The notes under the pieces: model-generated | The model's database searches: none | What the model saw: only the letters and a program-made list of their open reading frames with translations | What the model was told of the DNA's origin: nothing | Part shown: positions 824 to 23,980 of the stretch, one piece after another | Position numbering within the stretch: position 1 is the stretch's first letter | Layout: each line of letters starts with the position of its first letter | Position numbers and translations under genes: made by a program | NCBI GenBank assembly: GCA_947377275.1 | Contig: CANCFV010000017.1 | Span: 1-46,683, forward strand | Length of the DNA: 46,683 bases | DNA from: Burkholderiales bacterium | GTDB lineage: Bacteria > Pseudomonadota > Gammaproteobacteria > Burkholderiales > Burkholderiaceae_C | Direction: 5' to 3'

Positions 824-884
824 AGTATTCATCGATGTTTGCGGGCGATTTGGTCGCTGCGTCACAAGCCGAAATTTGCCGAAA

Positions 885-901: not shown

Positions 902-933
902 GTGGCCAGGGACAGATCCTTCAGAGAGCCTGC

Positions 934-4147: not shown

Positions 4148-4474
4148 ATGAAAACGCTCTCAGAACGCATTTCTGCGCGAACTGGCGAAAAGCCCGCGCC
4201 AAGCCCCAAAAGCAATCGGGCGGTGTTCTTGGCTTTGCGTGCCGACATACAAAGCGCACTTGATGACGGCTGGTCTGTCCTGGCCATCTATGAAACCTTG
4301 AACGAAGAGGGCGTCGTTTTGTTCAGCTACCAGTCGTTCCGGCTGTACGTGAACCGGTTGTTGCTGGGCAAGGCCTTGCCACCATCACCAAAGCGAACGC
4401 CCAAGAAGGGCGCAAAGGGCACAAGTGGGCAACTGGACTGTGGCTCCGACCGAAACAAAGGGGCCTTGTTGTGA
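4148..4474 (+). CDS. traK: TraK-like oriT-binding relaxosome protein (DUF5338)
   Basis: In IncP plasmids, TraK binds and bends DNA next to the nic site and helps relaxosome assembly; that is family knowledge. This 108-residue protein has the family core: a basic N-terminus, then FLALRADIQSALDDGW, IYETLNEEG and SYQSFRLYVNRLL, followed by a basic Lys/Pro-rich tail. It lies directly beside a recognisable IncP-type oriT and is separated from traJ only by that site. One difference from RP4 is orientation: there traK reads away from oriT, here it reads toward it and in the same direction as traJ. It is close behind the winged-HTH gene (3-base gap). The family call rests on the core pattern plus the oriT neighbour. 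Confidence 0.83.
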   Translation: MKTLSERISARTGEKPAPSPKSNRAVFLALRADIQSALDDGWSVLAIYETLNEEGVVLFSYQSFRLYVNRLLLGKALPPSPKRTPKKGAKGTSGQLDCGSDRNKGALL

Positions 4475-5921: not shown

Positions 5922-6004
5922 GCGAATGTTGTCGGCAACCCACTCGGTGTCGCGGGGTGCCGCCTTCCCGGTTAGCCTCAGGATTGAATAAACAGGGGAT
6001 TGAA

Positions 6005-6718
6005 TTGAGCACCACCGATACCGCCCGGCTTGCTGTATTGATCGATGCCGACAATGCATCGGCAGCCATGATCAAGCCACTGCTGGAAGAAATAGCCAAA
6101 TTCGGCATCGCAACTGTCAAGCGGGCCTACGGCGACTGGACAACTCAGAACCTGGTTGGCTGGAAAGATCAGTTGCATCGTTATGCGATACAGCCCATTC
6201 AGCAGTTCGCCTATACCAAGAGCAAAAACTCCACCGATGCGTCGCTGATCATCGATGCGATGGACCTGCTCTATGCCGGCAACGTCGACGGCTTCTGCCT
6301 GGTGTCATCTGACAGCGATTTCACACGCCTGGCCACCCGCATGCGGGAGGCAGGCAAGCTTGTGTACGGGCTTGGTGAGCAAAAGACGCCGGAGGCCTTC
6401 CGAGCTGCATGCGACAGGTTTGTCTACTTCGAGGTGCTTCGATCAGCGTCGCCTGCGACAGAAGGTCGGCCGACCGTGGATGACATTCCAGATCTGAAAG
6501 AGGCCTTCACTCAGGCCTTGGCAGCGACTTCCCGCGACAGCGGCTGGGGTGCGCTTTCAGCTGTGGGCTCATACATCGCCAAAAATAATCCGGCGTTTGA
6601 CACGCGCCTCTACGGCTGCACAAAGTTGAGCGAGCTGGTTCGAAAGCAATCCTATCTTGAAGTCAAGGAAAACACAGACGTGTCTGGCTTCACCCACCTT
6701 GCCATTCGGCTCAAGTGA
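6005..6718 (+). CDS. NYN domain / OST-HTH (LOTUS) protein, LabA-like putative RNase
   Basis: This 237-residue protein combines two domains. The NYN (PIN-like) domain at about residues 8-145 has VLIDADNAS with Asp14 and Asp16, TDASLIIDAMDLLY with Asp78 and Asp84, and VSSDSDFTRLA with Asp103 and Asp105. These are the acidic residues expected of metal-dependent RNases of the LabA/DUF88 group. The second, at about 165-237, is an OST-HTH (LOTUS) RNA-binding domain (WGALSAVGSYIAKNNPAF...LSELVRKQSYLEV). The frame opens at GTG 5957, but I chose TTG 6005 because AGGGG sits just upstream and the conserved domain starts there. It precedes the GmrSD-like gene by 54 bases. Whether it is a defence RNase or a general RNA-turnover factor carried as cargo is not shown. 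Confidence 0.88.
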   Translation: MSTTDTARLAVLIDADNASAAMIKPLLEEIAKFGIATVKRAYGDWTTQNLVGWKDQLHRYAIQPIQQFAYTKSKNSTDASLIIDAMDLLYAGNVDGFCLVSSDSDFTRLATRMREAGKLVYGLGEQKTPEAFRAACDRFVYFEVLRSASPATEGRPTVDDIPDLKEAFTQALAATSRDSGWGALSAVGSYIAKNNPAFDTRLYGCTKLSELVRKQSYLEVKENTDVSGFTHLAIRLK

Positions 6719-6772
6719 TGGACAGTAGGCCATTCAGACGCATGACTAAGAATTAACCGGAACCCTTGCCCA

Positions 6773-8620
6773 ATGGACATCCAACCTGACAAGCAGAACC
6801 TCGATAGGACTTTTGCCAATACGGTCTATTACATCGACTTCTACCAGCGCGATTACAAGTGGACTGAGGAGCCTGTTCGTCGCTTGATGGACGATGTGTT
6901 CTACCAGTTTGACGAAGCCTATGCCAAGCACAACGCGCTTGAGCCCACAGCCGAGAACGTCAATGCCAGATACCCCTGGTACTACCTGAACACCTATGTG
7001 ACCAACACCGTGCAAGGCCGTGTGTTTGTCGTTGATGGCCAGCAGCGCCTCACCACGCTGACGTTGTTCCTGGTTCAGCTATACAGGATGGCCAAGGGCT
7101 TTGAGTCAAAGACCCAGGGTTGGCTGGAGCGAAAGATTGCTGGATATGCCGGTGTCGAGTATGAGTTCTGGATGAACCATGTGCGTCACATCCATGTGCT
7201 CAAGGCATTCATGGATGGCGTGGCGCCGGGGCAAATTTCGACATCGTCAGGCGTCACCGCAGACAACATGGTGAAGAACTTCAAGCTCATTGCTGATGAG
7301 CTTGTTCGCCGCTTGGAGACCAAGCACAAGTTCGATACGTTCGTCTTTTACTTCCTGCATCGGTTAGTGTTGATCAACCTGTCCGTTGACACTTTGCATG
7401 TGCCCATGGTCTTTGAGGTGATCAATGATCGAGGCGTTCGGCTGAAACCCTACGAAATTTTGAAGGGCAAACTGCTGGGGCAAATCGACAAGATCGAACT
7501 CGACAGCGGTGGCTTCAACGAGCTTTGGGATGACCGTGTCAAAGCCGTCAATGCCGTCCGGGAAGATGAAATTGACAATTTCTTCCGGTACTGGCTCAAG
7601 GCGAAGTTTGCGGACACGCGCAAAACTGGCCAGCGTTTCGATGGTGACTATCACCGCGAGATGTTCAAGTCAGACATGAACGAACAGCTCAAGCTTGATC
7701 ACGATGTGGGGGCGGTGAAGGCCTTCTTGAAGAACACCTTCAGCTATTACGCCACCTTGTATGGCAAGTTGCTTGCGGCTGCGTCGAGCGAAGATCCAAG
7801 CTGCCCAGCCGTTTTTTACAACAGCTTGAACGAGCTGGACAGCCAGTACTTGCTGGTCTTGTCTGCCTGCAAGGTGCACGACCCAGAGGAGGCCGATAAG
7901 GTTCGGCTGGTTACCGAGCAGCTTGACCGACTCTTCACCCTGCTGCGTTTACAAGGGGCGTATGACAGCAATGAATTTGCGGCCCGTCTGTTTGAGGTCA
8001 GCGCAGAGATTCGAAATCAGCCAGCGGCTTTGATCCCCGCCATCTTTGACAGGCACTTGATTGCGGAAATCGCCGAACGGCGTACAACCGATGTCAAGCA
8101 TGCTTTTAGTTACGCCTTGTTCAGGCCTATGTCCATCGACCGATTGAACCCCAGGTTCATTCGGTACTTCTTTGCCCGCATCGAACAGCTTTTGGCGTCG
8201 GGCATGCAGTTGCAGATGAAGCATTCCCTGCATGAGCTGGTCACATCCAGGGGAAGCAAGACCGGTTTCCATGTGGAGCACATCCTCTCTCGCAACCCAG
8301 AGAGTCTGGCTGCCTTCAAAGGTGACGAGGAGCGATTCGAGGTGGAGCGCAACCGCTTGGGCGGGGTCCTTTTGCTCAAAGGCAAGGACAACATTTCAAG
8401 CAGCAATGAGCTGTACGCGGACAAACTCAAGTCCTACGCGAACTCACTGTATTGGAATGAAACGCTCAGGGCTGACACCTACAAGAGCAAGCTGGATTTC
8501 CTGGCCTTCATCAAGAACAATGACTTGAACTTCCAACCCTTGGAGACGTTCGGGCCAGAGCAGCTCGAAGAGCGTCAACGCTTATTGTTTGTGCTGAGCG
8601 AATTGATCTGGAAGACCTGA
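6773..8620 (+). CDS. DUF262/DUF1524 protein, GmrSD/BrxU-like type IV restriction nuclease
   Basis: This 615-residue single-chain protein has the DUF262 (ParB-like nucleotide-hydrolysing) N-terminal domain, including the hallmark VDGQQRLTTL at residues 87-96 and the upstream YQRDYKWTEE. It also has a C-terminal DUF1524 His-Me (HNH-like) nuclease domain with HVEHILSRNPE around His500-His503 and NRLGGVLLL starting at Asn527. Fused forms of this type (GmrSD, BrxU, SspE relatives) cut modified phage DNA using NTPs; that is family knowledge. The gene reads toward the large leftward RM-like block and ends 39 bases from the end of the Res-like gene, with a hairpin between them. An enzyme against modified DNA next to a methyltransferase-based system parallels BREX islands carrying BrxU. 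Substrate range is unknown. Confidence 0.9.
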   Translation: MDIQPDKQNLDRTFANTVYYIDFYQRDYKWTEEPVRRLMDDVFYQFDEAYAKHNALEPTAENVNARYPWYYLNTYVTNTVQGRVFVVDGQQRLTTLTLFLVQLYRMAKGFESKTQGWLERKIAGYAGVEYEFWMNHVRHIHVLKAFMDGVAPGQISTSSGVTADNMVKNFKLIADELVRRLETKHKFDTFVFYFLHRLVLINLSVDTLHVPMVFEVINDRGVRLKPYEILKGKLLGQIDKIELDSGGFNELWDDRVKAVNAVREDEIDNFFRYWLKAKFADTRKTGQRFDGDYHREMFKSDMNEQLKLDHDVGAVKAFLKNTFSYYATLYGKLLAAASSEDPSCPAVFYNSLNELDSQYLLVLSACKVHDPEEADKVRLVTEQLDRLFTLLRLQGAYDSNEFAARLFEVSAEIRNQPAALIPAIFDRHLIAEIAERRTTDVKHAFSYALFRPMSIDRLNPRFIRYFFARIEQLLASGMQLQMKHSLHELVTSRGSKTGFHVEHILSRNPESLAAFKGDEERFEVERNRLGGVLLLKGKDNISSSNELYADKLKSYANSLYWNETLRADTYKSKLDFLAFIKNNDLNFQPLETFGPEQLEERQRLLFVLSELIWKT

Positions 8621-8629
8621 GATTCAAGG

Positions 8630-8656
8630 GATTGGGGCGACACGGGCGCCCCAATC
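8630..8656. terminator. Bidirectional hairpin between convergent genes
   Basis: Arms GATTGGGGCG (8630-8639) and CGCCCCAATC (8647-8656) are perfectly complementary over 10 bp with a 7-base loop. They lie in the 39-base gap between the convergent stop codons at 8620 and 8660. There is no clear U-run on either side, so it may slow polymerase or protect mRNA ends rather than act as a standard intrinsic terminator. Confidence 0.65.
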
Positions 8657-8659
8657 AGC

Positions 8660-11600
8660 TCAAGCGACCGCGATCGTTCGCAGGAAGATCTCGTTCACAT
8701 AGCTAGAAGCCCCAGCATCCTTTTGAAACAGGACATGCCGATCGGCAAAGTCTTCAAGCGTGGCCATGCCTGGTTGCCACCAACGCACAGCACCCAAGGG
8801 GGTGTTGGACACGACGAACGAGTGCAACGAGATCTTGCCTTTGCGAGCCGGGTCTTTGATGGCCAATTTCTCTTCGATCTCTTTGACGGTTTCAAAGAAG
8901 CGCAACTTCGGATCGTTCAGACCCTCGCAACGCAAGATGCCCTTTGGGTCAACAAAGATCACATGCTGGCGGCCCTTGTCGAGCACCCAAAGGATGAAAT
9001 CAGGGTAGAAATTCCCTGCCTCAAAGAACCCAACGCCCCGGCCTTTTGACTGGTTGCGCAAAAGGTATACCTCTTTGCTGTCAAGCAGTGCTGGCCGACT
9101 CTGGCAATAGTTGCGCAAATCGACCACGAAGTCGCGTTCTCCCTCGTTCAAGTGCACGGGGCTAACGCTGAGCAGGTCAGTGTCCACGCCGTTACGCAGG
9201 TGAAGCAGGGGAGAGTAAAGGTGCTGATCAAAGAACAGCGCCTCACCCTTGCCGCCAATGTTGAAATCGGTGAGGTTGCCGTCGCTGATGTGCTGCTGTA
9301 ACTCAACCAGGCGCTGGATGATCAGCTTCTCAGATCGGTCCACCAGAACTTTGTAGGCATCAATGAAATTGGGGTCTGTGGGCGATAACTCCTCGTACAC
9401 ACGGTGAGGCGCTTCATAGGCGTCTTTCTTGACCTTGTAGAAGCGGTCGCAGTACTTGCGAAGCAGTGCAGTGGCGATCTCCTCCCACTCCTTCACTTTG
9501 TCGAAGCTGTCTGGCTGCATCACCTCCTGCGGAACGTAAAGCGCATACCAGTCGTTGCCAGGCTTGAGCAATGCCCAGGGCATCTCGCGGCTCAAGTTCA
9601 AGTTGTGCCAACCGCGCTCCGCTTTGAGCTGCTGCAGTGCCAGGTAAATGGCATCAAAGTCCATGAAGGCCAGATGCTCATCGGTCAAGAAAGCCCTGTT
9701 GCGACTCGTCTGAATCTGGGAGAACGCCACGCCCTTGCTGGCCTTGGAAGACACGCGCGGATACCAGTCCAACACTACGTCGCCCGGCTTCAGGCCAATG
9801 GCTTCGGCCGCAGCAAGAGAGGTCTTCTCTTCCTTCTTGAAGTTGATGTTGTCTGGAACCTTGACCGTCACCAAGGGTGTGGTGGGCAGCTTGATGCGCA
9901 CGGGAATATCGAAGGTCTTGCGGTCATCGGGCTTCGTGATGCCTTCGCCTTCCAGGAACTCGTTGAATCGCTCCATGTAGTCCGACTTCACGCCGAACAC
10001 GTTCAAGGTTTCAAGCAAAGGAAGGTAGGGATCTTTGGCGACCCAGACGAGCTCTTTGCCCTTTGCAGCCCAGTGGATGGCACGGCTGCGCTTCAAGCTT
10101 GACGCAAAGCCTTTGAGCCGCACGCCACGGCCAAACAACTGGATGATCTCGGAGCCTTCGCTCTGGCCGACATGCATCAGCCCTAGCGTGGAAACGCGAT
10201 AGCTGTTCCACCCTTCACTGAAGCGCTTGGAGCCAATCAGCAAGGTGAGCTTGGAGCTCTTGTCGTTCAAAGAACGGAACAAGGATTCACCAAATGGGCG
10301 CTCCGACACGTGGAGCAGCTCAGGGTGGGCTTCGCACAAGTCCGCCACCTTACGCGCATCGCCCACGTTCACCACGCCGAAGGGTTCCTCTGCAGCGCCA
10401 AGGCGCAGTGCCAGTTCGCCATCGCCACCCGTCAAATATTCCACATGCAGGCTGCCGCCAGCGGGCGCGTTGAACATCGTAGACAAGATGTCGTCAAACA
10501 CGGTCTGCGCTGTGCCTCCGCTCTGAGCCAGGTAGGGAAATGCTTCGGAGAAGGTATCCCTTTGCTGTTGGTCCAGCAGGCCCGTGTCGCCACTCAATAG
10601 CTTTTGAATGTGAGCGACTGTCTTTGCCCTGTCTGCCACTAACTCAGCCAGGAACAGCAGGATGTCGACCACGTCTGACACCTGTTTTTTGTTCTCTGTC
10701 CGCACCGCCGTGACTTTGCTGCCCACAAACACCCACAGCGGCTTGGCAATGGCGAACGCCTTGTAGCGGCCATGCTGGTCTTCATAGATGCGCAGTTGCT
10801 GGTAGTAGCTCAACAGGCAAGCAGTGAGGTACAGCCTGCGCCGCTCCTCTTCGGCTTGGCTGCCCTCCTGCCCATCGATGTTCAGGATCTTGTAGTCTTT
10901 GCCAAAGCCGTCGGCATGGAAGTATCGGTAGGAGTAGTCAAACAGAATGCTTTTGGCGTACTCATCGGCCAACGCGGTGTCACCGCCCACGGCCTGACCC
11001 AAGGTGGCTGAATACTCGAAGGTGAAGCCGTTCTGAGCCAGGCGGCTGCGCATGTCTGACCAGACTTCGCCTTGCGATCCACGGTGTGCTTCGTCAATCA
11101 AGACCAAGTTGTTCGTCTCGAACTGATCAACGGAGACTGTTTTCTTCTTGCCCTCGTCGCGCAATTTGTTCATGTCGATGACATCGACAGTCTGACCACG
11201 GAACAGGCCCGTGCTGTTGCCAGTGCTGTCTTTGTCAAACGGTGCCGCCGCGATACCCGACTCACCCAACTCTTGCAGATGTTGACGTGTCAGGCCCTCA
11301 TTGGGCGTGAGCAGCACCACGCGGTTGATCTCGTGGGTGCGCCGGTACTTGGCGAGGTAATGCCTGAACTGAAGCAAGTTCACATGCATCAGCAGGGTTT
11401 TGCCGCTGCCTGTGGCGTTCCACAAAGATATTTTGCGCAGTGAGCCCGTCGTATAGGGTTTGATGAGGTCTTTTTTGACCTCGCCGAAGCTCTTCAGTGC
11501 TTCGTTGAAATCCGACACATGCGCGTTCAGCGCATCAAGCAGACCTTGCTCATCGCGGAAGTACCAATCCAAGTAGATCTCAGCGAACATCAAGGTCATG

Positions 11601-11908
11601 TACTGAAAGTACTTCCATTGAAGGTGCTGTGATCGCCTGCTCGAAATGGCATCTGTGTGCCTGGCGATGTTGGCGTCGTACTCCAGGATCTGTTCACGCG
11701 CGATGGCGCCACCCGATGGCAGAAGTCGGGTCAGCTCATCCGCAAAGCGGAATGAGCCATCCTCTTCTCGCAACTCCATGGACTCGTCAGTGAGTCGCTT
11801 CGTGACTTCACGGAAGGCGTCTTGCTCGATGTCTAAAGGGCTAGCCCCAAAGACACTGAAAAGGAAGCGTTGAAGCACCAGCTTACGGGGGAATGGAACG
11901 TTTGCCAT
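8660..11908 (-). CDS. Type III Res-like DEAD/DEAH helicase-endonuclease
   Basis: This 1082-residue protein has a superfamily 2 helicase core. Walker A is ATGSGKT (Lys170), the DEAH motif is LIDEAHRG (Asp272-His275), motif V is GSKRFSEGWNSYRVSTLG, and motif VI is QLFGRGVRLKG near residues 588-598. Near the C-terminus is a PD-(D/E)xK-like nuclease signature, FYPDFILWVL about 15 residues before IFVDPKG (about 967-989). This layout is that of type III restriction (Res) subunits, which translocate on DNA and cut with a partner Mod enzyme. The start ATG overlaps the stop of the ATPase gene as TAATG, implying translational coupling. It is the last gene of the leftward block. A type III-like restriction role is well supported; cooperation with the SNF2 helicase is inferred. 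Confidence 0.9.
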   Translation of the reverse strand: MANVPFPRKLVLQRFLFSVFGASPLDIEQDAFREVTKRLTDESMELREEDGSFRFADELTRLLPSGGAIAREQILEYDANIARHTDAISSRRSQHLQWKYFQYMTLMFAEIYLDWYFRDEQGLLDALNAHVSDFNEALKSFGEVKKDLIKPYTTGSLRKISLWNATGSGKTLLMHVNLLQFRHYLAKYRRTHEINRVVLLTPNEGLTRQHLQELGESGIAAAPFDKDSTGNSTGLFRGQTVDVIDMNKLRDEGKKKTVSVDQFETNNLVLIDEAHRGSQGEVWSDMRSRLAQNGFTFEYSATLGQAVGGDTALADEYAKSILFDYSYRYFHADGFGKDYKILNIDGQEGSQAEEERRRLYLTACLLSYYQQLRIYEDQHGRYKAFAIAKPLWVFVGSKVTAVRTENKKQVSDVVDILLFLAELVADRAKTVAHIQKLLSGDTGLLDQQQRDTFSEAFPYLAQSGGTAQTVFDDILSTMFNAPAGGSLHVEYLTGGDGELALRLGAAEEPFGVVNVGDARKVADLCEAHPELLHVSERPFGESLFRSLNDKSSKLTLLIGSKRFSEGWNSYRVSTLGLMHVGQSEGSEIIQLFGRGVRLKGFASSLKRSRAIHWAAKGKELVWVAKDPYLPLLETLNVFGVKSDYMERFNEFLEGEGITKPDDRKTFDIPVRIKLPTTPLVTVKVPDNINFKKEEKTSLAAAEAIGLKPGDVVLDWYPRVSSKASKGVAFSQIQTSRNRAFLTDEHLAFMDFDAIYLALQQLKAERGWHNLNLSREMPWALLKPGNDWYALYVPQEVMQPDSFDKVKEWEEIATALLRKYCDRFYKVKKDAYEAPHRVYEELSPTDPNFIDAYKVLVDRSEKLIIQRLVELQQHISDGNLTDFNIGGKGEALFFDQHLYSPLLHLRNGVDTDLLSVSPVHLNEGERDFVVDLRNYCQSRPALLDSKEVYLLRNQSKGRGVGFFEAGNFYPDFILWVLDKGRQHVIFVDPKGILRCEGLNDPKLRFFETVKEIEEKLAIKDPARKGKISLHSFVVSNTPLGAVRWWQPGMATLEDFADRHVLFQKDAGASSYVNEIFLRTIAVA

Positions 11909-13563
11909 TAGATTGCCTCTGCCGCCTGTATTGCGCCTGCCGCCGCAACAACCTGTAATGCTGCCTGCGGTGGGCTTGGAGGCAATAAATTCAAAGCTTC
12001 ACACATTTGTTTCAGACGACTAGAGACAGGCTCCACGTACGGGGACCAGCGTTCACTGGCTGCAATTGCCCCTATCAGGCGAGCGTGTAGGCTTCCAAGC
12101 TCATTGGTGATGTCGGCGGGTGCGTCAGACTCACACTTCATCTTCGCCAGCTCGTATAGAGCAACTTTAGGTTGCGGCGGCGGCCGCATCCTCGCGATCT
12201 CGCCAAGATCTTCAATGAGCCACGGCGGAGCTTTCCCAGCGTCTCTAAGCTCCTGTGCAACAGAGAGGAAGAAGCTCTCTGGATTCTCTTGGTTTGCTGC
12301 ATGGAACTCTGTGACCAAGGCTGTGGCTTGTGCGCGTTTCCTCTCTACCCACACACGAGGTCCGTCAAGCGGCATGTTTTCACCGACCATGCTGATCCGC
12401 TTTTCAATTTCCGTGCGCTTTTCTTCGAGCGAAGTAGCAACATCGCCATCACCGACAATCATCACGTTGTCCACGTTGTCTCGGTCAATCACGATCCCGG
12501 CAGCCACCGAGAAAAGATTGCTCGCGCTGTAGGCCACGCCAATTTTCTGGATGAACTTCTTTACGTTGAGTTCGTTCGCAAGGTGGTCGACGATCTTCTT
12601 GGCGAGCTCATCCTCCACCCAAATCGTGATCTTCTTGATGTCGGAAAGGTGTCCCGATAGCGCGTGCTGGTCTGCAGGCGCAAGGCCTTTCTTGCAGGTG
12701 ACCGCATCTGTTGCTTTGTCGACATTAAGTGAGTAGGTGCACAGTCGGCCCTTCCAGCTCTTGATACCCAACCAATGGGTCGAGATCACGACCTGCAACT
12801 TCTTTTTTTCGGCTTGCTCTTCCAAGAACAACAGCAAGTCGTGCATCGCTTTGTTGTGGAGGGAAACTTCCGGTTCCTCGATCAGGATCAAACTTCCTTT
12901 GGGCGCTAAAAAAACCTCCCGAACTACTTCGAATATCTTCTGCTCGCCCGCACCCATGTAGTGAGAGGGATAAGTGACCTTTCCAAGGCTCCGATCGTCG
13001 AGCGAAGCGTAGAGGAAGCTTTGGATTGCTCCTGAATTTTTCTTTGCATGCCCCGCGGCTGGATAGCTGCGATCCATGATTTTCCCAATTTCGCCCAAGT
13101 ACGAAAGAAGTCTGGGGCCATCTAGCTCTATGAAATCAGACTTCACATACTCAAGAGATTCGTCTTCGGCATCCCTCTCGATGTGTGGGACTGCATCACC
13201 AATGCCTATGAGCTTGACATAGCGTTGGAATCGGTTCTGAGGCAAGGGTTGCCAAGCACCTTCGAGCTTTGTGAACACCCGCGTTTCGTCCTGGTCGCCC
13301 TTGATGTCAACGTCAAAACTTGAGCCGTTCCAGTCGCACCCCTCATATGACTTGAAGAACTTTTGGGGACGATAGTCTTCTTGCTTGAGTGCGATTCTTT
13401 GCTTAGGTTGGAACGTGCAAGCCAAAGCACGCATGATGGTCGATTTGCCTGAACCATTTACGCCGACGATTGCGGTGACGCCCACCTCAGGAAGCTCTAG
13501 CTCGATGTCTCTCAACCGCTGAAGTTGGTGGATCTTTAAACGAGTGATCGCGTTGTTTGCCAT
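11908..13563 (-). CDS. ABC/SMC-type AAA ATPase (OLD-like architecture)
   Basis: This 551-residue protein has an ABC-class ATP-binding domain. It opens with the strand LKIHQLQRLRDIELELPEVG, then Walker A GVNGSGKST (Lys40), and later Walker B LILIEEPEVSLH (Glu229, Glu230), with a following H-loop region near ISTHWLGI. The remaining 300 residues contain IWVEDELAKKIV and VMIVGDGD, which could be the acidic motifs of a divergent Toprim-like nuclease as in OLD proteins, but I cannot confirm that. The gene lies 8 bases after the methyltransferase stop and overlaps the Res start, so it is a fixed member of the operon. Similar ATPases act as sensors or regulators in several anti-phage systems. Its role between Mod and Res is not a feature of ordinary type III systems. 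Confidence 0.85.
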   Translation of the reverse strand: MANNAITRLKIHQLQRLRDIELELPEVGVTAIVGVNGSGKSTIMRALACTFQPKQRIALKQEDYRPQKFFKSYEGCDWNGSSFDVDIKGDQDETRVFTKLEGAWQPLPQNRFQRYVKLIGIGDAVPHIERDAEDESLEYVKSDFIELDGPRLLSYLGEIGKIMDRSYPAAGHAKKNSGAIQSFLYASLDDRSLGKVTYPSHYMGAGEQKIFEVVREVFLAPKGSLILIEEPEVSLHNKAMHDLLLFLEEQAEKKKLQVVISTHWLGIKSWKGRLCTYSLNVDKATDAVTCKKGLAPADQHALSGHLSDIKKITIWVEDELAKKIVDHLANELNVKKFIQKIGVAYSASNLFSVAAGIVIDRDNVDNVMIVGDGDVATSLEEKRTEIEKRISMVGENMPLDGPRVWVERKRAQATALVTEFHAANQENPESFFLSVAQELRDAGKAPPWLIEDLGEIARMRPPPQPKVALYELAKMKCESDAPADITNELGSLHARLIGAIAASERWSPYVEPVSSRLKQMCEALNLLPPSPPQAALQVVAAAGAIQAAEAI

Positions 13564-13571
13564 GGCGTGAG

Positions 13572-16500
13572 TCAGTTCGGATTGCCAAACATCAGCGATG
13601 TGAAGTGGTCTTCAGTAAGTCGGACCTTCCAGGTCTCATCCGGCCGCTTCAGGTTTTCGATGTTGTTGTCGCCGTTCACGAAGATCAGGTCGAACTCTTG
13701 ATCACGGCTGTTGTAGGCCTGCTTCTTGAACCAGGTATCCAGTTCGTCGCGACCCACATCCTGAGTGTTTCTCCACAGGACCAATACGCGCTCGCCGGAG
13801 GCGAGTGAGCCGGTGACTTCCAGGACGCCCTTGAGGGTGCGCATGCTCACCACACGCAGTCCAAGCAGGTAGTTGAAGGTCTCCACCAGGTCGAGCTTGA
13901 CCCGGCGGCTCTCGTCGTTGCGAGTGACGACCATCTCGACATTGAACGGATCATTGAAGCGATCCATGTTCAGCAAGCTGGCGCGAGCCTCTACGTCGAG
14001 CATGTACTTGAGCACATAGTTCTCACGGAAGGCAGGCGAGGAGTCCAGCAATGCCTGCTGGTTGGTGTCACGTGCCAACGCCAGGTTGTCGCAGGCGTCC
14101 TCATACGACTCCAGCCGGACGTACTTCACCACGAGTGACACGCCTTCTGTGTTGACCGGTTTACCAGCATCCCATTGAGAGGCGAAGATGGCCTTCTGGA
14201 TGCGTGGCTTGAGTACGCGGTCAAAGTGATCACCCATTTCGACCAATACGAACCGTTGATCCATGCCTTGCTCGCGGCGCAGGTCAATGGCGGCATGCCC
14301 TGTGGAGCCTGAGCCTGCGAAGTAGTCCAGCACATAGCCCCCTTCCGGAGACAAGTAGCGGATGACACGCATCAGGTCCGGCCAAGGCTTTGGGTTGTCA
14401 AACGCGCGGTCTCCAAACAGTGCATCAAACTTTTGACTTGCCAATTGCGCGTAGCTGTAGAAAACGCTTGGCATAACTTGTCCATCGGAGTCTTCGAACA
14501 GATAGGTGATCCCGCTGGGAATCTTCCCTTCATCCTCGCCAAAAGCTATACGGCCGGTAGCATGCTCTTCCCAGAAGCGCTCTGCCGTTGGAAAGATCCA
14601 TCCTCTTGAAGGCTGCTTGCATGGGCGGCCAGTAACAGGGTGCCTCACTTCATAGCGAGGCCCACCACCGCCTGGCCAGCTTAGATCTCGATCATCCCGA
14701 TATGGTCCACGAGGGCCTACTTTTCCAAACCTGTTTAGTCTGCGGCGAGGATCTGAAACTGGAATGTCATCAAACCATTTCTTCCATCCAGTGCGGATAG
14801 CGTCCCAGTCTTGACCGTTGGTCTTGCACAAACGAGCAAACACCTGCTTTGCATCATCTAAGCCTTCTTTAGGCTCCCTGAACTTGACACCTCGTTCAAT
14901 CAGGTGATCCTTCTGGTTGGCCCACACGAGCATGTACTCGTGCCCGACGGAGAAGAACTTGGCGTCGTTCTTCCGATTACGGTCCCACACCAGCTTGGCC
15001 AGCTCATTGCGTCCATAAGTCACGTCCAGCATCTCGGCCAGTCTGTGCATCTCGGCGTCATCGATGCTGACAGTGATTGTCCCATCGGGTGTCTGCAGGG
15101 CTTTGCCAGCCAGTAGGCGGTCATGCATCAACGACATCCAGGATGAATGCTGGTAGGCATCCTTGTAGATGAAGTCGTCGCTGCCCGTGTTGTAGGGCGG
15201 GTCGATGTAGATGGTCTTGATTTGCTCTTTGTATCGTTGCTGCAGCAAGTTGAGCGCTTGAAAGTTGTCGCCATGCAGCAGCACGCCTTGCGTGTTGGCA
15301 TCGAGATCCTCGATGCCAGCCAGCACCTCGTACTTCAAACTGGTGTCGAGGTAGGCCGTGTCGAGCGTCAAGAACGGCAGAGCCTTAAGAAACGCTGGCG
15401 TCAGGGGTGCCGAATAGGTGGGGCGAGGCTGCTCGAATAGCTGTGCATCGGCGTCTTTGTTGGTTCCACCTGGGAGCTGGTCGATGGCGAACAGTCGCAC
15501 CCATTCTTCACGCAGATTGCGCTCCAGACCATCCCAGCCGCGTACACGCCGCTCTGCCGCTTCACATATCGCGGGATACAACGAGTCTGGCACCCGATCG
15601 AGTGTGATCAGCCAGTTGGTCTCCAGGACGAACTTCTTTTTGAGCCACAGCTTCTTTTGAAACTCCTCCAGCTGCGCGAGGAAGTCGATGATCTTGTGGG
15701 CGATTCGTCGCAGGGCTTTCAAGCGCGAAAGGTAACTTTCGACGGACACTGCCCGATCATTGTTTTCCAAGTCATCCAGACGTATGACTTCATTCTTGAT
15801 GAAGAAGTCGAGCTCTCGGCGCAAGAACTTGCCCAAGTTCTTGTGGATGAAATAGTCGAAGCTGTTTCGTGCCGTGTAGTCGGTCACGTACTTTTCAAGC
15901 AGCGTTCGGCCCTTGCTTTTCTCGGTTGGCGCAAGCTTGGCCATTGCTGACTTCCACAGCGACCAGTTGCTCACTCGCTGTGTCAGCGGCGCACCTTCTG
16001 GGAGGCTCAACAATCCATCAATGATCTGGGTGTTCAGATCTTTTTGCTTTCGCTTCTCACTGTCAGGCCTGTACTCGAAATAGATCACCAGCTCGTCGCC
16101 ATCAAGGCACAGCGGGTCGCTGGCCAGCATGAAGCGGCGCTCGCCTTCCGGGGAGGCGGCCTTCTTGTTGTCTTGTTCGGTGCTGACAAAGCCCAGCTCA
16201 AACCTGGCGCGGCCTTGTTCGGTCTTGAACGCGTAGCTGGTGAACTTCTCACTGGACTTGATGTAAAACTGGTCGTGATTCGACCAGTGCATCTTGACCT
16301 CTTCGCCCTCATAGGGCATCGCGTAGACACCTTCCTTGTACCGGCGAAGCGAATGGAAGTCACCATCTCGGTAGTAGCGGCTGAAGAACGTGTAGAGGTC
16401 TGAATAGCACTCGTTCTCCCAGTGCAGCAGGTCGCCCTGTTGTGCAATTTGGCCCTTGAGCTCTTTGACCAAGTCCAGGCTGTCAGGATCGATTTTCAGC

Positions 16501-16745
16501 TTCTTGGCGTTGGCGATGGCCTCTGCCAATTCCTTCTGCTTGTCTGCCAAGTCAGCGGGCAGCGCCTCTTGCAATTCCGTTCGCAAGCTGGGCATCAGCT
16601 CATGCTCTAGGAATTGGCTGATCTCATCTCGCTTGGCATTCATGATGCGGTAGATGCCAAAGTCCAGGTCGGCCTGGTCCATCTGGAACATCTCTTTCAG
16701 CTTGTCGACCAGCTGTTGGCGTTTGTTGTCGTTGGCGGTGCTCAT
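13572..16745 (-). CDS. Type III Mod-like beta-class DNA methyltransferase
   Basis: This 1057-residue protein carries the catalytic DPPY motif (Asp515-Tyr518, YIDPPYNTGSDDF) before the SAM-binding FxGxG motif (Phe809, DYFAGSGSTG). That order defines beta-class N6-adenine or N4-cytosine methyltransferases such as type III Mod subunits. Between them is a variable region suited to target recognition, including SWPGGGGPRYE and GWIFPTAERFWEE. It is much longer than a usual Mod (about 600-700 residues) because of an N-terminal extension of nearly 500 residues rich in helices. I chose ATG 16745 with GAGAAAG upstream; a start at 16778 would overlap fic. It lies 10 bases after fic and 8 bases before the ATPase gene. 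Target sequence is unknown. Confidence 0.92.
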   Translation of the reverse strand: MSTANDNKRQQLVDKLKEMFQMDQADLDFGIYRIMNAKRDEISQFLEHELMPSLRTELQEALPADLADKQKELAEAIANAKKLKIDPDSLDLVKELKGQIAQQGDLLHWENECYSDLYTFFSRYYRDGDFHSLRRYKEGVYAMPYEGEEVKMHWSNHDQFYIKSSEKFTSYAFKTEQGRARFELGFVSTEQDNKKAASPEGERRFMLASDPLCLDGDELVIYFEYRPDSEKRKQKDLNTQIIDGLLSLPEGAPLTQRVSNWSLWKSAMAKLAPTEKSKGRTLLEKYVTDYTARNSFDYFIHKNLGKFLRRELDFFIKNEVIRLDDLENNDRAVSVESYLSRLKALRRIAHKIIDFLAQLEEFQKKLWLKKKFVLETNWLITLDRVPDSLYPAICEAAERRVRGWDGLERNLREEWVRLFAIDQLPGGTNKDADAQLFEQPRPTYSAPLTPAFLKALPFLTLDTAYLDTSLKYEVLAGIEDLDANTQGVLLHGDNFQALNLLQQRYKEQIKTIYIDPPYNTGSDDFIYKDAYQHSSWMSLMHDRLLAGKALQTPDGTITVSIDDAEMHRLAEMLDVTYGRNELAKLVWDRNRKNDAKFFSVGHEYMLVWANQKDHLIERGVKFREPKEGLDDAKQVFARLCKTNGQDWDAIRTGWKKWFDDIPVSDPRRRLNRFGKVGPRGPYRDDRDLSWPGGGGPRYEVRHPVTGRPCKQPSRGWIFPTAERFWEEHATGRIAFGEDEGKIPSGITYLFEDSDGQVMPSVFYSYAQLASQKFDALFGDRAFDNPKPWPDLMRVIRYLSPEGGYVLDYFAGSGSTGHAAIDLRREQGMDQRFVLVEMGDHFDRVLKPRIQKAIFASQWDAGKPVNTEGVSLVVKYVRLESYEDACDNLALARDTNQQALLDSSPAFRENYVLKYMLDVEARASLLNMDRFNDPFNVEMVVTRNDESRRVKLDLVETFNYLLGLRVVSMRTLKGVLEVTGSLASGERVLVLWRNTQDVGRDELDTWFKKQAYNSRDQEFDLIFVNGDNNIENLKRPDETWKVRLTEDHFTSLMFGNPN

Positions 16746-16755
16746 GGCAGCTTTC

Positions 16756-17874
16756 TCAGGCGTAAGGCACGAAGGCATTGCTGTCGCGTGTCAACAGCTG
16801 CATCAATTTTGGGTGGATGAATAGCTTCTCTTTGCCGTACTGCATTTCTCGCAGCACACCAAGCTCCACTAGGTCTTTCAAGTATCGAGATGCGGCCTGC
16901 CGTTGGGCGATGTCTTTCTCGACTAGGTTGGCGATGCGGCAATAGGGCTGCTCGAAGATCACATCAACCAGCTCACGGCTGTAGATCTTGGGCAGGCGGG
17001 CACGCACATGCTCGGTGGTGTGATCAGCCAGGCTGCGGATGGCGGCAATCTTGGCCGTGGTCCAGCGTGAGGTTTCTTCCACGGCACGGAGCATGAATAG
17101 CAACCAGGGCTCCCAGGCCTCCTCCTGTGTCACCTCCAACAGCAGACGGTAGTAGTCGGCCTTGTGGGCGATGATGTGGCGGCTCAGGTAAAGGATAGGC
17201 AGGCTGAGCAGCTCTTCCTGGATCAGGTACAGGATGTTCACCACCCGGCCAGTGCGGCCGTTGCCGTCGGTGAAGGGGTGGATGGCCTCGAACTGGTAGT
17301 GGCCCACGGCCATGCGTATCAAAGGGTCCAGCTCGGTCTGGTTGTGCAGAAAGCGCTCCCAGTTGGCCAGCAGGTCTCTTAGGTGTGCCTCGCCCTCTGG
17401 TGGGGTGTAGATCACTTCGCCTGTGCGGTCATTGGCCAGTTGGGTTCCGGGTGTGCGGCGGATGTCCATGTCTGCACCTTTGAGGGTGCGGCAAATTTCC
17501 ACGGCGGTGGCGGTGCACAGGGGACGGTCTTTCAGCGACAGGAACCCCCGCTGCAAGGCCGATCGGTAGCGCAGCGCCTCTTTGGTGGCATGGTCAGCCG
17601 AGCCATCGCCCTGTACGTGCTGGAACAACTGGTCAGTGGTGGTGACGATGTTCTCGATCTCGGAGCTGTCCTTGGCTTCCAGCAGCGGGATCGTGTTGAT
17701 CAGCATGGTCTGGTTCGGGATCAGCTCTGCCGCCTGTTTCAATTCGGCCAGCGCTGCGCGCGCAGTGATGCACGCCTTGAGCACTGCCTTGCTTTCAAGG
17801 TCATGCCGGGGCGGCAAGGGGGGCAGCTGGTTGTAGGGCGTTTCAGCGCGCCAAGGGGGCAATGGGTCGCTCAT
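16756..17874 (-). CDS. fic: Class II Fic-domain AMP-transferase (SoFic-like)
   Basis: Fic enzymes transfer AMP, or more rarely other groups, onto hydroxyl side chains of target proteins. This 372-residue protein has an intact active site, HPFTDGNGRTGR at residues 199-210, with catalytic His199. It also has the N-terminal inhibitory helix motif SSEIEN (Ser70-xxx-Glu74-Asn75), which makes it class II. A winged-helix domain occupies about 290-372. The length equals that of Shewanella SoFic. The gene is separated from the SNF2 gene by 145 bases filled with GCGACACG repeats, so it probably has its own promoter and may repress it through the winged helix. It is followed within 10 bases by the methyltransferase gene. 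Its target is unknown; it could modulate, or act as an abortive arm of, the linked system. Confidence 0.94.
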   Translation of the reverse strand: MSDPLPPWRAETPYNQLPPLPPRHDLESKAVLKACITARAALAELKQAAELIPNQTMLINTIPLLEAKDSSEIENIVTTTDQLFQHVQGDGSADHATKEALRYRSALQRGFLSLKDRPLCTATAVEICRTLKGADMDIRRTPGTQLANDRTGEVIYTPPEGEAHLRDLLANWERFLHNQTELDPLIRMAVGHYQFEAIHPFTDGNGRTGRVVNILYLIQEELLSLPILYLSRHIIAHKADYYRLLLEVTQEEAWEPWLLFMLRAVEETSRWTTAKIAAIRSLADHTTEHVRARLPKIYSRELVDVIFEQPYCRIANLVEKDIAQRQAASRYLKDLVELGVLREMQYGKEKLFIHPKLMQLLTRDSNAFVPYA

Positions 17875-18019
17875 GGGCCAGGCGGTCTCGTGGTGCGGGC
17901 AGCGACACGAGGTTTTGCCGTGTCGCTATTTTTGATAATCGGCGACACGTTATCACGTCATGTCGTCGGTAGCGACACGTCGGTTGAATGTGTCGTCAAA
18001 TTTGTATTTCTGCGACGTG
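17875..18019 (-). promoter_or_regulatory. Probable fic promoter with GCGACACG/CGTGTCGC repeats
   Basis: The 8-mer GCGACACG occurs at 17902-17909, 17942-17949 and 17972-17979, and in inverted form at 17919-17926. Copies at 17901-17909 and 17919-17927 form a perfect 9-bp-arm inverted repeat (AGCGACACG/CGTGTCGCT). Looser TGTCGTC and CGACGTGTC copies lie at 17960-17966, 17991-17997 and 18013-18021. The cluster fills the gap between the SNF2 stop and the fic start, with the nearest copy 27 bases from the ATG. It looks like a cooperative operator. The Fic C-terminal winged helix is the obvious candidate binder. Confidence 0.7.
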
Positions 18020-20902
18020 TCAGGCCACTTCCCACCTGATGGTGAACAGGTGCCTGGTGTGGCTTGCGCGGTGCAAACGCTTCTCCAGCGCCTCGATCAA
18101 GGCATCTCGGCGCGCTTCGATCTCGTCCTCCACGGCAAAGATCTCCTGCCGTTGGCGGCGCTGTTCGCTTTCGACCTTGCGGGTTTCGTCTTGGAGCCGT
18201 TTGGCCTCATCCATACTCAGAGCCAGGCGTGCTTGCCGCTTTAGACCCTTGAGCTTGAGCTTGGTGTCTTGCAGGGCCTGCTCAGCTGCAAAAACACGGT
18301 CGTCAGCCCAGGAATCCAGCTTTTCCCGCTCTTGCTGGAAAAACTTGTCGTTTTGCTCCAGCGCACGGCTGAGTGCGGCATCCATCTGGCGGCGCGCATT
18401 GCCTTGCAATGCATCTGGTGCCGTTTGGCTGAACGGTTCGGCTGTGGCGGTCAGCTGGAAGAGCTTTTCACAGGTCTCCTGGTCAAGCACCGCTGCGTCA
18501 TCGGTGCATGCCGTAAAGACCAGGTGCTCTTCACGCTGAAAGCTGTCCAGCTCCAACAAGTTGAGCTGCAGCCAACCACTTCGGCCTGTCAATTGCTCCA
18601 CGGCGCTGATGCGAGGTTTGGCTGAACGGTACTGAAACCGTAGCAGTGCCTGGGCGGTTTCAGCAGATCGCCCTTGGTCCAACACGTATTCACCAAGTGG
18701 GTGGGTCAGGCGGTACACCCGGGCGTGCTCCAACACCTTCTCGCTGACCGAGTCACCCTTTCGAATCAGTTTATAGGTACCCGGCGGGACAGATGGCAGC
18801 GGTGGGGCAGCCAGATCAAAAGACAGATTCGACGCATTGAACTTGGCCTGATTGGCCAAGACATGTTGTGTCAGCTTCCAGAAGAGGCGCGACACCCGGT
18901 CAAGCTGGGACTCTGCTCGCTCCTTGTGCGTACGCAAGCGATCGTGGATGTCTGAATCAAAGTGCTCCAGCAACAACCGCTCGGTTTCTTGCATGCGGGC
19001 CTGAATGTCACCATCCAGCTCGGCACGAAGCGCGGCAAAGGCCGCTTCGATGGCTTGTGGCGTGCGGCATTGGTCGTAGATCTCGGCAATGCGGCGTTCG
19101 AAGTCGAGGCCGCTTTCGATACGCCCCAGAATCTGGTCCGAGGCACCAAAGACGCCATCGAACAAATGGAACTTGTCTTGCAGCAGCTCCAACACGCGCT
19201 GATCCGCCTCGTTGCGTTGGTTCAAAAAATTGATGACCACCACATCGAAGCGCTGTCCATATCGGTGGCATCGACCGATGCGCTGCTCTACCCGTTGAGG
19301 GTTCCACGGCAGGTCGTAGTTCACCACCAATGAGGCGAATTGCAGGTTGACGCCTTCGGCGGCAGCCTCGGTGGCAATGAGGATGTCTGCATGCTCACGA
19401 AAGTGGTCGATCAAGGCGGTACGCCGGTCCACGGCAGGGGAGCCAGTGACACGATCTGAGCCTGAATGGCGGGCGAGCCACCGTTGGTAGATGCCGTTGG
19501 TGTTTTCGCCCTGGTTCTTGCCGCTGAAGGTGACGACCTTGCCCGGATGGCCATGCGCTTCGAGGAAGCGAGCCAGGTACTCTTGCGTGCGGCGAGACTC
19601 GGTGAAGATCACGGCCTTTCGGGCCGCCCCCATTTGCGCCATGCGTTCGAAGCCTTGTTCAAGTGCACGAAGCAGCGCATGGGACTTCTGGTCTTCTCGA
19701 ACTTTGGATGCCAGGGCGATGTACTGATCCAGTTCAGCGATCTCAGTTTTCAACAGTGCCAAGTCAATCGCGGAGGGAGTGCCGGTGGCCTCTTCATCTG
19801 CGTCGTCTTCCACGTCATCGACCAAGTCTGATTCCAGGTCCTCATCGTCCAACAGTTTGACGAGCCAATCTTCGTCGATGCTCTGTTGGTTCAGCAGGTT
19901 CTGAAGGCGCTCCCGCATTCCTTGCAGCGTGGCCAAAACGGCTTCAGTGGAGGACGCCAGCAGCTTGCGCAACACCAGCGAAACCAGATGCTTCTGCCGC
20001 AGGGGGAAACCGTAGCTGAACTCTCTTTGCAGGTAGGCAGAAATACAGGTGTAAAGCTCTTGCTCGACATCGCTCGGTGCAAACGGCGTGGTCAGCGCAT
20101 GGCGCTGGGTATAGGGCACGTATTCCAAAACATCTCGCCGCAGCGTGCGCTGAACAAACGGCTGTAGCCGACGGCGCAGCGCGCTGATGTCGCCATCGCT
20201 GTTGGTGTATCGGGTGCGGAAGCTGCGCTCATCACCAAAGATGTTTTCGTCAATGATCGATGTCAGGCCATACAGCTCCATCAGGGAGTTCTGCAGCGGC
20301 GTGGCGGTGAGAAGCAGCTTTTTGCGGCCTGCCAGAGCGCGTTTCAGTGACTGGCCTGTCTCATGGCTCTTGCGGTGCGCATTGCGCAGCTTGTGTGCTT
20401 CGTCGATGACGACCACGTCCCATGGGATAGCTCCCAACTGCTTTTCGAGGCGCGTGGCGAAGTTGTAGGACATGACGCAGATAACGTCGCGATCCAGGGG
20501 ATCAAAGACACCGCTTTTGCGCAGCGTGCCCCACGTGCGCGCGTCCAGCACCTCAGCGGGCAGGCTGAACTTGTCTGACAGTTCTTGTGCCCATTGCTTG
20601 CGAAGTGCTGCCGGGCAAATGACCAGAAGGCGCCGACGGCGCTCCGCCCAAAGCTGGCACATCACCAAGGAAGCCTCGATGGTTTTGCCGAGACCGACCT
20701 CATCAGCCAGCATGACGCCCTGGCTCAAGGGGTTTTGCAAGGCAAAGAGGGCCGCGTCAATCTGGTGGGGGTTCAGGTCAACGCTGGCGTCAAACAGTGA
20801 CTGAGACAGCCGATCCTCTTCGGATGAGGAGCGCTTGCGCGAAAGCTCCCACGCGAAATATTTGGCGTGGAAGGCTGTGATGTCCGAATTTGACGATTGC
20901 AT
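18020..20902 (-). CDS. SNF2/HepA-type DEAD/DEAH helicase with C-terminal coiled coil
   Basis: This 960-residue protein is an SF2 ATPase of the SNF2 class related to RapA/HepA. It has LNPHQIDAALFAL, Walker A DEVGLGKT (Lys73), DEAH (VIDEAHK, Asp167-His170), LTATPLQNS, a Glu/Asp-rich insert, and a second RecA-like domain with NYDLPWNPQRVEQRIGRCHRYGQ near 530-550. The last 110 residues or so are strongly heptad-like and charged, which predicts a coiled coil. The open frame extends to 21085, but ATG 20902 has AGGGGCG just upstream and is where the conserved FHAKYFAWEL segment begins. It is the first gene of the leftward block. Enzymes of this kind translocate on DNA without classical unwinding, as in DISARM DrmD. 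A role in target tracking is inferred from that comparison. Confidence 0.9.
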   Translation of the reverse strand: MQSSNSDITAFHAKYFAWELSRKRSSSEEDRLSQSLFDASVDLNPHQIDAALFALQNPLSQGVMLADEVGLGKTIEASLVMCQLWAERRRRLLVICPAALRKQWAQELSDKFSLPAEVLDARTWGTLRKSGVFDPLDRDVICVMSYNFATRLEKQLGAIPWDVVVIDEAHKLRNAHRKSHETGQSLKRALAGRKKLLLTATPLQNSLMELYGLTSIIDENIFGDERSFRTRYTNSDGDISALRRRLQPFVQRTLRRDVLEYVPYTQRHALTTPFAPSDVEQELYTCISAYLQREFSYGFPLRQKHLVSLVLRKLLASSTEAVLATLQGMRERLQNLLNQQSIDEDWLVKLLDDEDLESDLVDDVEDDADEEATGTPSAIDLALLKTEIAELDQYIALASKVREDQKSHALLRALEQGFERMAQMGAARKAVIFTESRRTQEYLARFLEAHGHPGKVVTFSGKNQGENTNGIYQRWLARHSGSDRVTGSPAVDRRTALIDHFREHADILIATEAAAEGVNLQFASLVVNYDLPWNPQRVEQRIGRCHRYGQRFDVVVINFLNQRNEADQRVLELLQDKFHLFDGVFGASDQILGRIESGLDFERRIAEIYDQCRTPQAIEAAFAALRAELDGDIQARMQETERLLLEHFDSDIHDRLRTHKERAESQLDRVSRLFWKLTQHVLANQAKFNASNLSFDLAAPPLPSVPPGTYKLIRKGDSVSEKVLEHARVYRLTHPLGEYVLDQGRSAETAQALLRFQYRSAKPRISAVEQLTGRSGWLQLNLLELDSFQREEHLVFTACTDDAAVLDQETCEKLFQLTATAEPFSQTAPDALQGNARRQMDAALSRALEQNDKFFQQEREKLDSWADDRVFAAEQALQDTKLKLKGLKRQARLALSMDEAKRLQDETRKVESEQRRQRQEIFAVEDEIEARRDALIEALEKRLHRASHTRHLFTIRWEVA

Positions 20903-20919
20903 TGACGCCCCTGAGTCTT

Positions 20920-20937
20920 GTTGCTCTCTGTAGCAAC
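20920..20937. promoter_or_regulatory. Candidate operator A, GTTGCT-N6-AGCAAC, ahead of SNF2 gene
   Basis: A perfect 6-bp-arm palindrome lies 17 bases upstream of the SNF2 start codon. A second copy with the same spacing is found at 21062-21079, next to the divergent small gene. The position suggests repression of the defence operon or overlap with its transcription start. Confidence 0.55.
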
Positions 20938-21061
20938 TATGCCAGCGCACCAGCAGGAACTCCGGTTGGGGATGGCGATTCGCCATGCTTCTCGCAAAAA
21001 TCAAAAAACTTTGACCAGACGCGCAGCAGACCTTTTCAGGCTGCGTCTTTAGCCTTTCGGT

Positions 21062-21079
21062 GTTGCCAATCCGAGCAAC
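21062..21079. promoter_or_regulatory. Candidate operator B, GTTGCC-N6-AGCAAC, ahead of the divergent unit
   Basis: This is the second copy of the palindrome seen at 20920-20937. It differs only in the sixth base and the spacer, and lies 23 bases before the ATG at 21103. Together the two copies sit at the two outer ends of the 200-bp divergent region, as expected for a regulator that controls both directions. Confidence 0.55.
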
Positions 21080-21102
21080 GTCCATATGAAGAAAGGTTCA
21101 AC

Positions 21103-21273
21103 ATGTCGAACAAGTCCACCGCCAAAGCCACTCCCATGACCACGCAAGCGGCCGCCCGTATCCAGTCGAAGATTGCGACGAGTAACGGAGGGCAAGTGCA
21201 GAAGGGTTCGTTTGTCGCCCGCGCGCAGCGTGCAGCAGCCGTCAATCAGGGTGGAACCAAAGGCTCGAAGTAA
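21103..21273 (+). CDS. Small SMP-like protein (seed-maturation-protein-like domain)
   Basis: This 56-residue protein has a motif order typical of short bacterial proteins carrying the SMP domain (PF04927): MTTQAAARIQSKIAT, then NGGQVQKGSFVARAQRAAA and a polar tail. Such small proteins are common on plasmids and islands; their function is not known. The ATG at 21103 follows AAAGG. It is the first gene of the rightward unit and is divergent from the SNF2 helicase, sharing a promoter region with paired palindromes. A 7-bp inverted repeat (21285-21291/21310-21316) separates it from the next gene. Confidence 0.7.
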   Translation: MSNKSTAKATPMTTQAAARIQSKIATSNGGQVQKGSFVARAQRAAAVNQGGTKGSK

Positions 21274-21325
21274 TTGAGGGAGGCGCGGTGCGGCACCAAC
21301 CAAGGCGCTGCACCGCTGTCAAACC

Positions 21326-21532
21326 ATGAAATACAGCAAAGACGAGAGAATCGCAGCCACCGTCAAAGCCCTGGTTGCGCAAGGATGGCGTCATGTGTGC
21401 GGGAGGAAGCATGGCAAGCTGATCGCCCCAAATGGCAGGAAGCTAGCCATCCCAGGTACACCGAGTGACTGGCGTGCCAGCATGAATTTCAAGCGCGATG
21501 CCCGCCGAATTACCCTGAGCGAACTGACATGA
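21326..21532 (+). CDS. Small HicA-like / dsRBD-fold protein
   Basis: This 68-residue basic protein has the order helix, GW, basic strand, NG turn, strand ending in IPGTP: VKALVAQGWRHVCGRKHGKL, then APNGRKLAIPGTPSDW. That arrangement recalls HicA/YcfA mRNA interferases, in which a Gly-Ser-His-His turn carries the catalytic His. Here the site reads GRKHGK, with one His. No HicB-like antitoxin gene adjoins. It may be a HicA-fold nucleic-acid-binding protein rather than an active toxin. Its stop overlaps the start of the ankyrin gene (ATGA), so the two are translationally coupled. Confidence 0.6.
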   Translation: MKYSKDERIAATVKALVAQGWRHVCGRKHGKLIAPNGRKLAIPGTPSDWRASMNFKRDARRITLSELT

Positions 21533-23934: not shown

Positions 23935-23980
23935 ACTCATAATCCTTTGGTCGTTGGTTCAAGTCCAACACGGCCTACCA
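23935..23980 (+). repeat. Right attachment-site direct repeat (attR), tRNA 3' fragment
   Basis: This is an exact copy of 778-823, the tRNA from its anticodon loop to CCA. There is no upstream half, so it is not a functional tRNA gene. It marks the right boundary of the island; host DNA resumes at 23981. Confidence 0.95.

Follow-up and report, generated by a model that had tools for sequence, protein, structure and literature searches.

Type III restriction-modification relies on Mod to methylate a short asymmetric site on one of its strands; at unmethylated sites, Mod and Res use ATP, slide along the DNA and cut it. Among described systems, the m4C type III systems Eco86II (Escherichia coli NCTC86) and BspHIV comprise, in addition to mod and res, a third gene that is helicase-like and located 5' of mod, and a helicase-like gene near mod and res was found in more than 500 genomes (PMC8259958). 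The passages of that paper on which we draw describe the third gene as dispensable for methylation, its product as not seen in Eco86II after partial purification, and its role as unclear at the time (2021). They assign a single putative type III system to NCTC86, and GAGCC was predicted for B4103-1 (in Table 4), as for Eco86II (PMC8259958).

Here, we analysed a stretch of 46,683 nucleotides from a Burkholderiales bacterium (contig CANCFV010000017.1 of assembly GCA_947377275.1; hereafter 'the window'), in which a sequence-only reading had pointed out a block of five presumed defence genes. We think it probable that the block is an Eco86II-like type III operon, composed of SNF2, Mod and Res, which carries a SoFic protein and an OLD-like ABC-TOPRIM protein as an exchangeable, added layer of defence and resides in a tRNA-Met island. 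New is the unusual pair of Fic and ATPase as passengers; the three-gene core is already known.

Layout of the block and its island

The five genes are encoded on the minus strand in the order SNF2, Fic, Mod, ATPase, Res, read from position 20902 down to 8660. Their places and common direction, as given by the sequence-only reading, were confirmed by open reading frames, models and motifs; matches in Pfam, PADLOC and NCBIfam back the named functions, and the catalytic motifs sought were found in all five proteins. The first core gene (18020-20902) codes for a RapA-like SF2 translocase of the SNF2 type with 960 residues and the motifs GLGKT, DEAH and QRIGR, its nearest solved structure being RapA; the open frame spans 18020-21085, and conserved N-termini favour the ATG at 20902 as start. 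The Fic protein (16756-17874, 372 residues, HPFTDGNGR at 199) occupies the SNF2/Mod gap as cargo and scored 659 bits against the SoFic model NF046030 (cut-off 550), in agreement with the class II Fic enzyme named before. Mod (13572-16745), the second core protein, is a large type III methyltransferase of the beta class (DPPY ahead of FAGSG) and has 1057 residues from the ATG at 16745, a start that conserved N-termini favour over the frame limit at 16778. The ABC-type ATPase (11908-13563, 551 residues, GSGKS and EEPE) is OLD-like with a TOPRIM-like C-terminal half and forms the cargo of the Mod/Res gap. Res (8660-11908, 1082 residues) completes the core and combines SF2 helicase motifs (GSGKT, DEAH) with a PD...DPK nuclease motif (PDF...DPKG).

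Scores of 696 bits for Mod and 675 bits for Res against the PADLOC type III models support the proposed type III pair, and the ABC-type ATPase between the two and the SNF2 translocase upstream were likewise borne out, as was the view that the block goes beyond the usual type III system of two genes. The Mod profile matches the solved type III Mods 6k0w, Mbo45V and EcoP15I, and the predicted structure (mean pLDDT 75.4) has the EcoP15I Mod as its best match. The first 478 residues of the frame (approximately 15345-16778) gave no significant Pfam family, and many residues of this N-terminal part of about 480 residues are conserved among relatives. For Res, an alignment search returned no solved structure at E 0.001.

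With the favoured starts, the junctions are exactly those reported before, i.e. 10 bases between Fic and Mod, 8 bases between Mod and ATPase and a TAATG overlap of ATPase and Res, while 145 bases (17875-18019) separate SNF2 from Fic. This gap contains four copies of GCGACAC/GTGTCGC, and a comparable clustering (at least four copies of some 7-mer) was found in 8 of 1258 stretches of the same size in the window, those covering the gap included. The copies are possibly an operator, and genes downstream of the gap may be controlled separately; a consensus scan found no promoter in the block region.

The block is located inside an integrated island of about 23 kb (778-23980) with tRNA-Met as target. 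A 46-bp repeat corresponding to the 3' end of the tRNA gene marks the left end (778-823, plus strand), an exact copy the right end (23935-23980, plus strand), and a tyrosine integrase is encoded beside the tRNA gene (open frame 790-2028, plus strand, start approximate). Placed in an element with its own integrase, the cargo might serve the element instead of the host, stabilising the island by addiction or by acting against competitors, and Fic proteins can indeed act in toxin-antitoxin pairs. We regard this explanation as improbable: no partner gene resembling an antitoxin was recognised next to Fic, and related cargo is found in other settings, too. The same island holds two defence-like genes convergent to the block, which code for an NYN/OST-HTH protein (5957-6718) and a GmrSD-type nuclease (6773-8620). 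A 732-residue protein is encoded between the block and the right island end (21529-23727), in which Pfam recognises only C-terminal ankyrin repeats. Near the integrase, we found a gene for a DUF5338 protein (4148-4474), which we take to be perhaps a plasmid transfer gene.

The SNF2, Mod and Res core

In the genomes of NCTC86EC and B4103-1, SNF2, Mod and Res follow each other with no insert in the gaps. The proteins of the window align nearly end to end with those of NCTC86EC, at identities of 56% for SNF2 (537 of 963 columns), 35% for Mod (1109 columns) and 37% for Res (1163 columns). Features of the Eco86II group present in the window are the beta-class Mod, a Res with SF2 and PD-(D/E)XK-type motifs and a homologous ATPase gene 5' of mod; direct adjacency of helicase gene, mod and res is absent, as Fic and ATPase stand in between. 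Strict adjacency is not taken to define the group here because 33 of the 61 loci described below have at least one filled gap. Judged by sequence, the SNF2-Mod-Res core is the known three-gene type III system of the Eco86II kind, as far as that kind is described in the passages used (PMC8259958). Given this homology, the earlier statement that the block matches no named system fails for the core. The earlier division into a unit from fic to res with SNF2 as a neighbour has to be redrawn as well, with SNF2 as a core gene and Fic and ATPase as the optional ones. Of 5426 complete E. coli genomes, 146 contain a match to the E. coli SNF2 gene itself, with at least 95% identity in 144 records.

The constancy of the core was assessed by a Mod-alignment scan of the genome_contigs collection, which yielded at least 513 relatives; the best 80 were kept, 77 could be read by script and 47 had at least 6 kb on both sides. 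In these 47 wide-flank loci from the best 80 of at least 513 relatives, Res follows Mod without exception (47 of 47), and SNF2 stands upstream of Mod in 34, stands downstream in one and is absent nearby in 12, the last number counting against SNF2 as a needed part of the core. The sequence-only reading had itself foreseen two objections, namely that the block might be of a known type and that SNF2 and Fic might rarely accompany Mod, ATPase and Res. The first applies to the core and the second to Fic, whereas SNF2 is usually there (35 of the 47 loci from the best 80 of at least 513 relatives). Viral contigs with at least 6 kb upstream served as control (17 of 78 with shorter flanks were set aside). 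A same-strand SNF2 gene was located beside the large Mod in 9 of 16 cases compared to 5 of 45 for other Mods (Fisher p = 0.0007), a comparison that includes near-copies (e.g. L137 and L144) and places L152, a split large Mod, among the other Mods. Among 369 genomes of the window's class, 9 encode the large Mod and 6 an SNF2 protein above 1400 bits; five of these six also have the Mod, and in the sixth the SNF2 gene is located at a contig end.

Haloarchaeal and Priestia plasmids (L023-L026) encode a large Mod and Res with no SNF2 of the window's kind in the stretch. Upstream of Mod, they carry genes annotated as AAA ATPase (L023, L024), hypothetical proteins (L025) or ATP-dependent DNA helicase (L026).

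The best defence models of the SNF2 protein are DrmD (637 bits in PADLOC) and BrxHI/BrxHII (229 bits), and one could think of the SNF2 helicase as the base of a DISARM- or BREX-like system in degenerate or variant form, a likeness already raised from the sequence. It stands at the level of the helicase family; membership does not follow, as SNF2 stays below both NCBIfam cut-offs for DrmD (648 bits against 950 for NF038318, DrmD_b, and 268 against 610 for NF038317). Its score with the DrmA model (135 bits) is below its DrmD scores, and separate DrmA or DrmB genes were not among the matches listed for the eight proteins encoded in 5957-23727. The same holds for PglZ and BrxC. Hma was rejected, too (SNF2 207 bits against HmaA; neither HmaB nor HmaC among the matches listed). 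With Res and Mod of type III in addition, a DISARM or BREX variant is the least probable reading of all. The defence-model scan proposed earlier has yielded type III and SoFic, and no membership in DISARM, BREX or Hma among the matches listed.

Genes carried in the two gaps

Gene calling relied on a script that takes the longest ORF, and cargo was defined as any ORF on the same strand with 90 residues or more, so that some small ones may be spurious. On this basis, 61 loci (window included) have SNF2, Mod and Res in order, with both gaps empty in 28 and at least one filled in 33: the SNF2/Mod gap in 15, the Mod/Res gap in 27 and both in 9. Left out were five loci masked by ORFs overlapping Mod (L021, L026, L045, L087 and L096), three of which (L021, L087 and L096) have all three core genes, and the Mods of L036 and L037 are identical. 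With 28 of the 61 loci free of cargo, the core can do without it. Clustering of the 93 cargo ORFs gave 53 groups. Pfam was applied to 20 of the 93, of which five had no match and 15 matched ABC/AAA ATPases, DUF4276, YhcG-type nuclease, RhuM, Abi_2, AbiJ, GmrSD_N, PLDc, HTH plus M78 peptidase, PHP, DUF4143, DUF3800 or sigma-70. Some fillers are members of known defence families; among the fillers are SoFic, HEC-01A/B, HEC-03B, NsnB-like proteins, YhcG-type nuclease, RhuM, Abi_2, AbiJ and GmrSD_N.

Close relatives differ in what they carry. A search of 42 genomes of the window's genus found, besides the genome of the window, one (G033) with a match to the N-terminal part of the large Mod; this species encodes, in order, SNF2, Mod, HEC-01A, HEC-01B and Res (locus L283), the Mod ORF being longer (1307 residues). 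In another close Mod pair, L018 is empty and L020 carries an ATPase. A quick tree of 91 Mods, in which several rows have an unlike letter make-up, requires four changes for the four Fic carriers, 11 for the 15 ABC-ATPase carriers, 24 for any cargo and 13 for the presence of SNF2; the ABC-ATPase cluster is loose, with members fitting different PADLOC families. Since the two gaps are occupied by other genes in relatives, the locus has the look of an expandable defence platform and not of a new five-gene system, and we are highly confident that Fic and ATPase are exchangeable cargo on an SNF2-Mod-Res core.

Fic was found in four of 82 readable loci, i.e. in the SNF2/Mod gap of the window and L060 and in the Mod/Res gap of L089 and L121; the last has no SNF2 nearby and its Fic fits the SoFic model only partly, and L065, in which a partial Fic follows Mod at the end of a contig, was excluded from the count. 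A second Fic-domain gene is present in the same genome outside the window (G000:C54:11960-12289). A true five-gene system, conserved as a set and with its five products working together in a single complex or pathway, would agree with the tight junctions from Fic through Res. The genome search for this gene order found Fic and ATPase together in one of the 82 readable loci, the window itself, and the core recurs without either, which makes such a system most improbable. In the literature searched, mostly outside subscription papers, we found no description of exchangeable cargo beside a type III SNF2 gene; a B. cereus SNF2 gene and the type III system BceS1, seemingly the work of one group, both appear among the references of PMC3459991.

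The ATPase has an ABC ATPase head, recognised by Pfam, structure-profile match and motifs. Nearest by sequence is the OLD nuclease 6p74 (E 4e-8), which is also the top match by fold (E 5e-12, at a TM-score of 0.26 and with a weak model of mean pLDDT 57.9); GajA was likewise among the top fold matches of this model. The best PADLOC model is HEC-04. E317, D372 and D374 are invariant in 11 sequences, comprising the ATPase and ten relatives from viral contigs at 20-25% identity, a pattern which we take to fit the TOPRIM glutamate and DxD. Pfam gave no TOPRIM match for the window ATPase and one below the cut-off for a relative (E 0.018), and it returned no significant family for the C-terminal half. 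The ATPase appears to be an ABC-TOPRIM protein of the OLD type. No relative turned up in viral contigs when the window ATPase was used as the sole query, and its fused ABC-TOPRIM form was not seen in any other type III locus. On plasmids, the search gave 894 records, all below 60% identity (25.7% for the 40 listed), and a relative of similar length and 28% identity is encoded on an E. coli IncI plasmid with no Mod or Res alongside.

These plasmid relatives, which stand alone, lead to the main rival explanation: Fic and ABC-TOPRIM could be independent passengers, stand-alone defence genes that landed in a transcribed operon of a defence island and have no link to SNF2, Mod or Res. Under PADLOC, SoFic is a single-gene model, the fillers are many and unrelated (53 groups among 93 ORFs) and 28 of 61 loci have no cargo at all. 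Set against this are the position of the fillers inside the operon gaps, where the shared strand follows from the counting rule and families were counted within the operon only, and the junctions of 10 and 8 bases and the ATPase-Res overlap. We assign independent passengers a minor yet serious share of the probability and prefer an added layer of defence that belongs to the operon.

Possible function and comparison with known systems

Why should a restriction operon carry such genes? Mod and Res presumably restrict DNA by the established type III route. The SNF2 protein would move on double-stranded DNA and might either help the restriction enzyme along DNA covered by proteins or report that the enzyme is engaged. 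Fic and ABC-TOPRIM could then act as second-line effectors upon failed or blocked restriction, Fic by adenylylating a target in the cell and ABC-TOPRIM by cutting nucleic acid. Precedents, as far as described in the passages used, are PrrC inside EcoprrI (PMC12707154) and OLD-ABC modules inside BREX and related loci (PMC12839542). While we favour the operon with an added defence layer, we hold this exact guard mechanism, in which cargo acts when restriction fails or is blocked, to be conceivable with slightly less than even chances.

A second SNF2 lineage extends the observation. In the window's class, 16 genomes have SNF2 proteins of about 520-1200 bits, and 11 of these loci were read (L221-L226 and L228-L232). 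A classical type III Mod is located downstream on the same strand in 10 of the 11, with 403-673 residues in eight; in L223 and L228 the Mod is truncated where the stretch or contig ends, and L221 ends before any Mod. Genes between SNF2 and the classical Mod include IetS, an LmuB-like protein, GmrSD and AIPR. PADLOC type III models were matched by three restriction genes of such loci, two from genomes of this second group and one from the viral contig L176. The large-Mod group is thus not the only one with cargo. Fic genes were also observed in between or downstream in loci of the second group.

It is tempting to speculate that SNF2-linked type III operons form a general platform of layered immunity, in which SNF2 couples the state of the restriction enzyme to whichever effector sits in the gaps, a theme seen both with the large Mod and with the classical Mods of about 400-670 residues that accompany the second SNF2 group, and thus in two or more type III lineages. 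Such coupling to any gap effector would allow cargo to be swapped without loss of control. We consider this generalisation doubtful at present, at odds of a minority view. If the operon gaps are effector slots, backup effectors may be coupled to restriction through the third gene of Eco86II-type systems, and effectors could then be found by reading what stands between SNF2, mod and res.

The window shares individual traits with several known systems. Its Fic resembles SoFic (NF046030, PDLC03963) in scoring above the family cut-off and in its motif, with the activity predicted from these, and differs from SoFic as a single-gene PADLOC model by its place inside a type III operon. The ATPase has its best sequence and fold matches in the OLD family (OLD 6p74, GajA of Gabija); unlike in Gabija, no GajB-type helicase partner was recognised beside it. 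Type III-like operons with MORC ATPases have an extra ATPase gene in the operon, too, a GHKL ATPase in the case of MORC and an ABC ATPase in the window, as far as the consulted text of PMC2292703 describes them. EcoprrI with PrrC likewise has an effector gene inside a restriction-modification operon, a likeness of arrangement; EcoprrI is of type IC and PrrC, in the description used, a tRNA nuclease, unlike the window (PMC12707154). A modification-based core with embedded effectors is also the principle of BREX and its related loci, in which OLD-ABC and nuclease genes are inserted; their core proteins differ, and PMC12839542 makes no mention of Fic. Closest remain Eco86II and BspHIV, the comparison being that with the NCTC86EC genes. 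The window differs in a Mod that is only 35% identical and in the presence of cargo, of which the NCTC86EC locus has none, and it shares with that locus the SNF2-like ATPase gene 5' of mod, the large Mod and Res.
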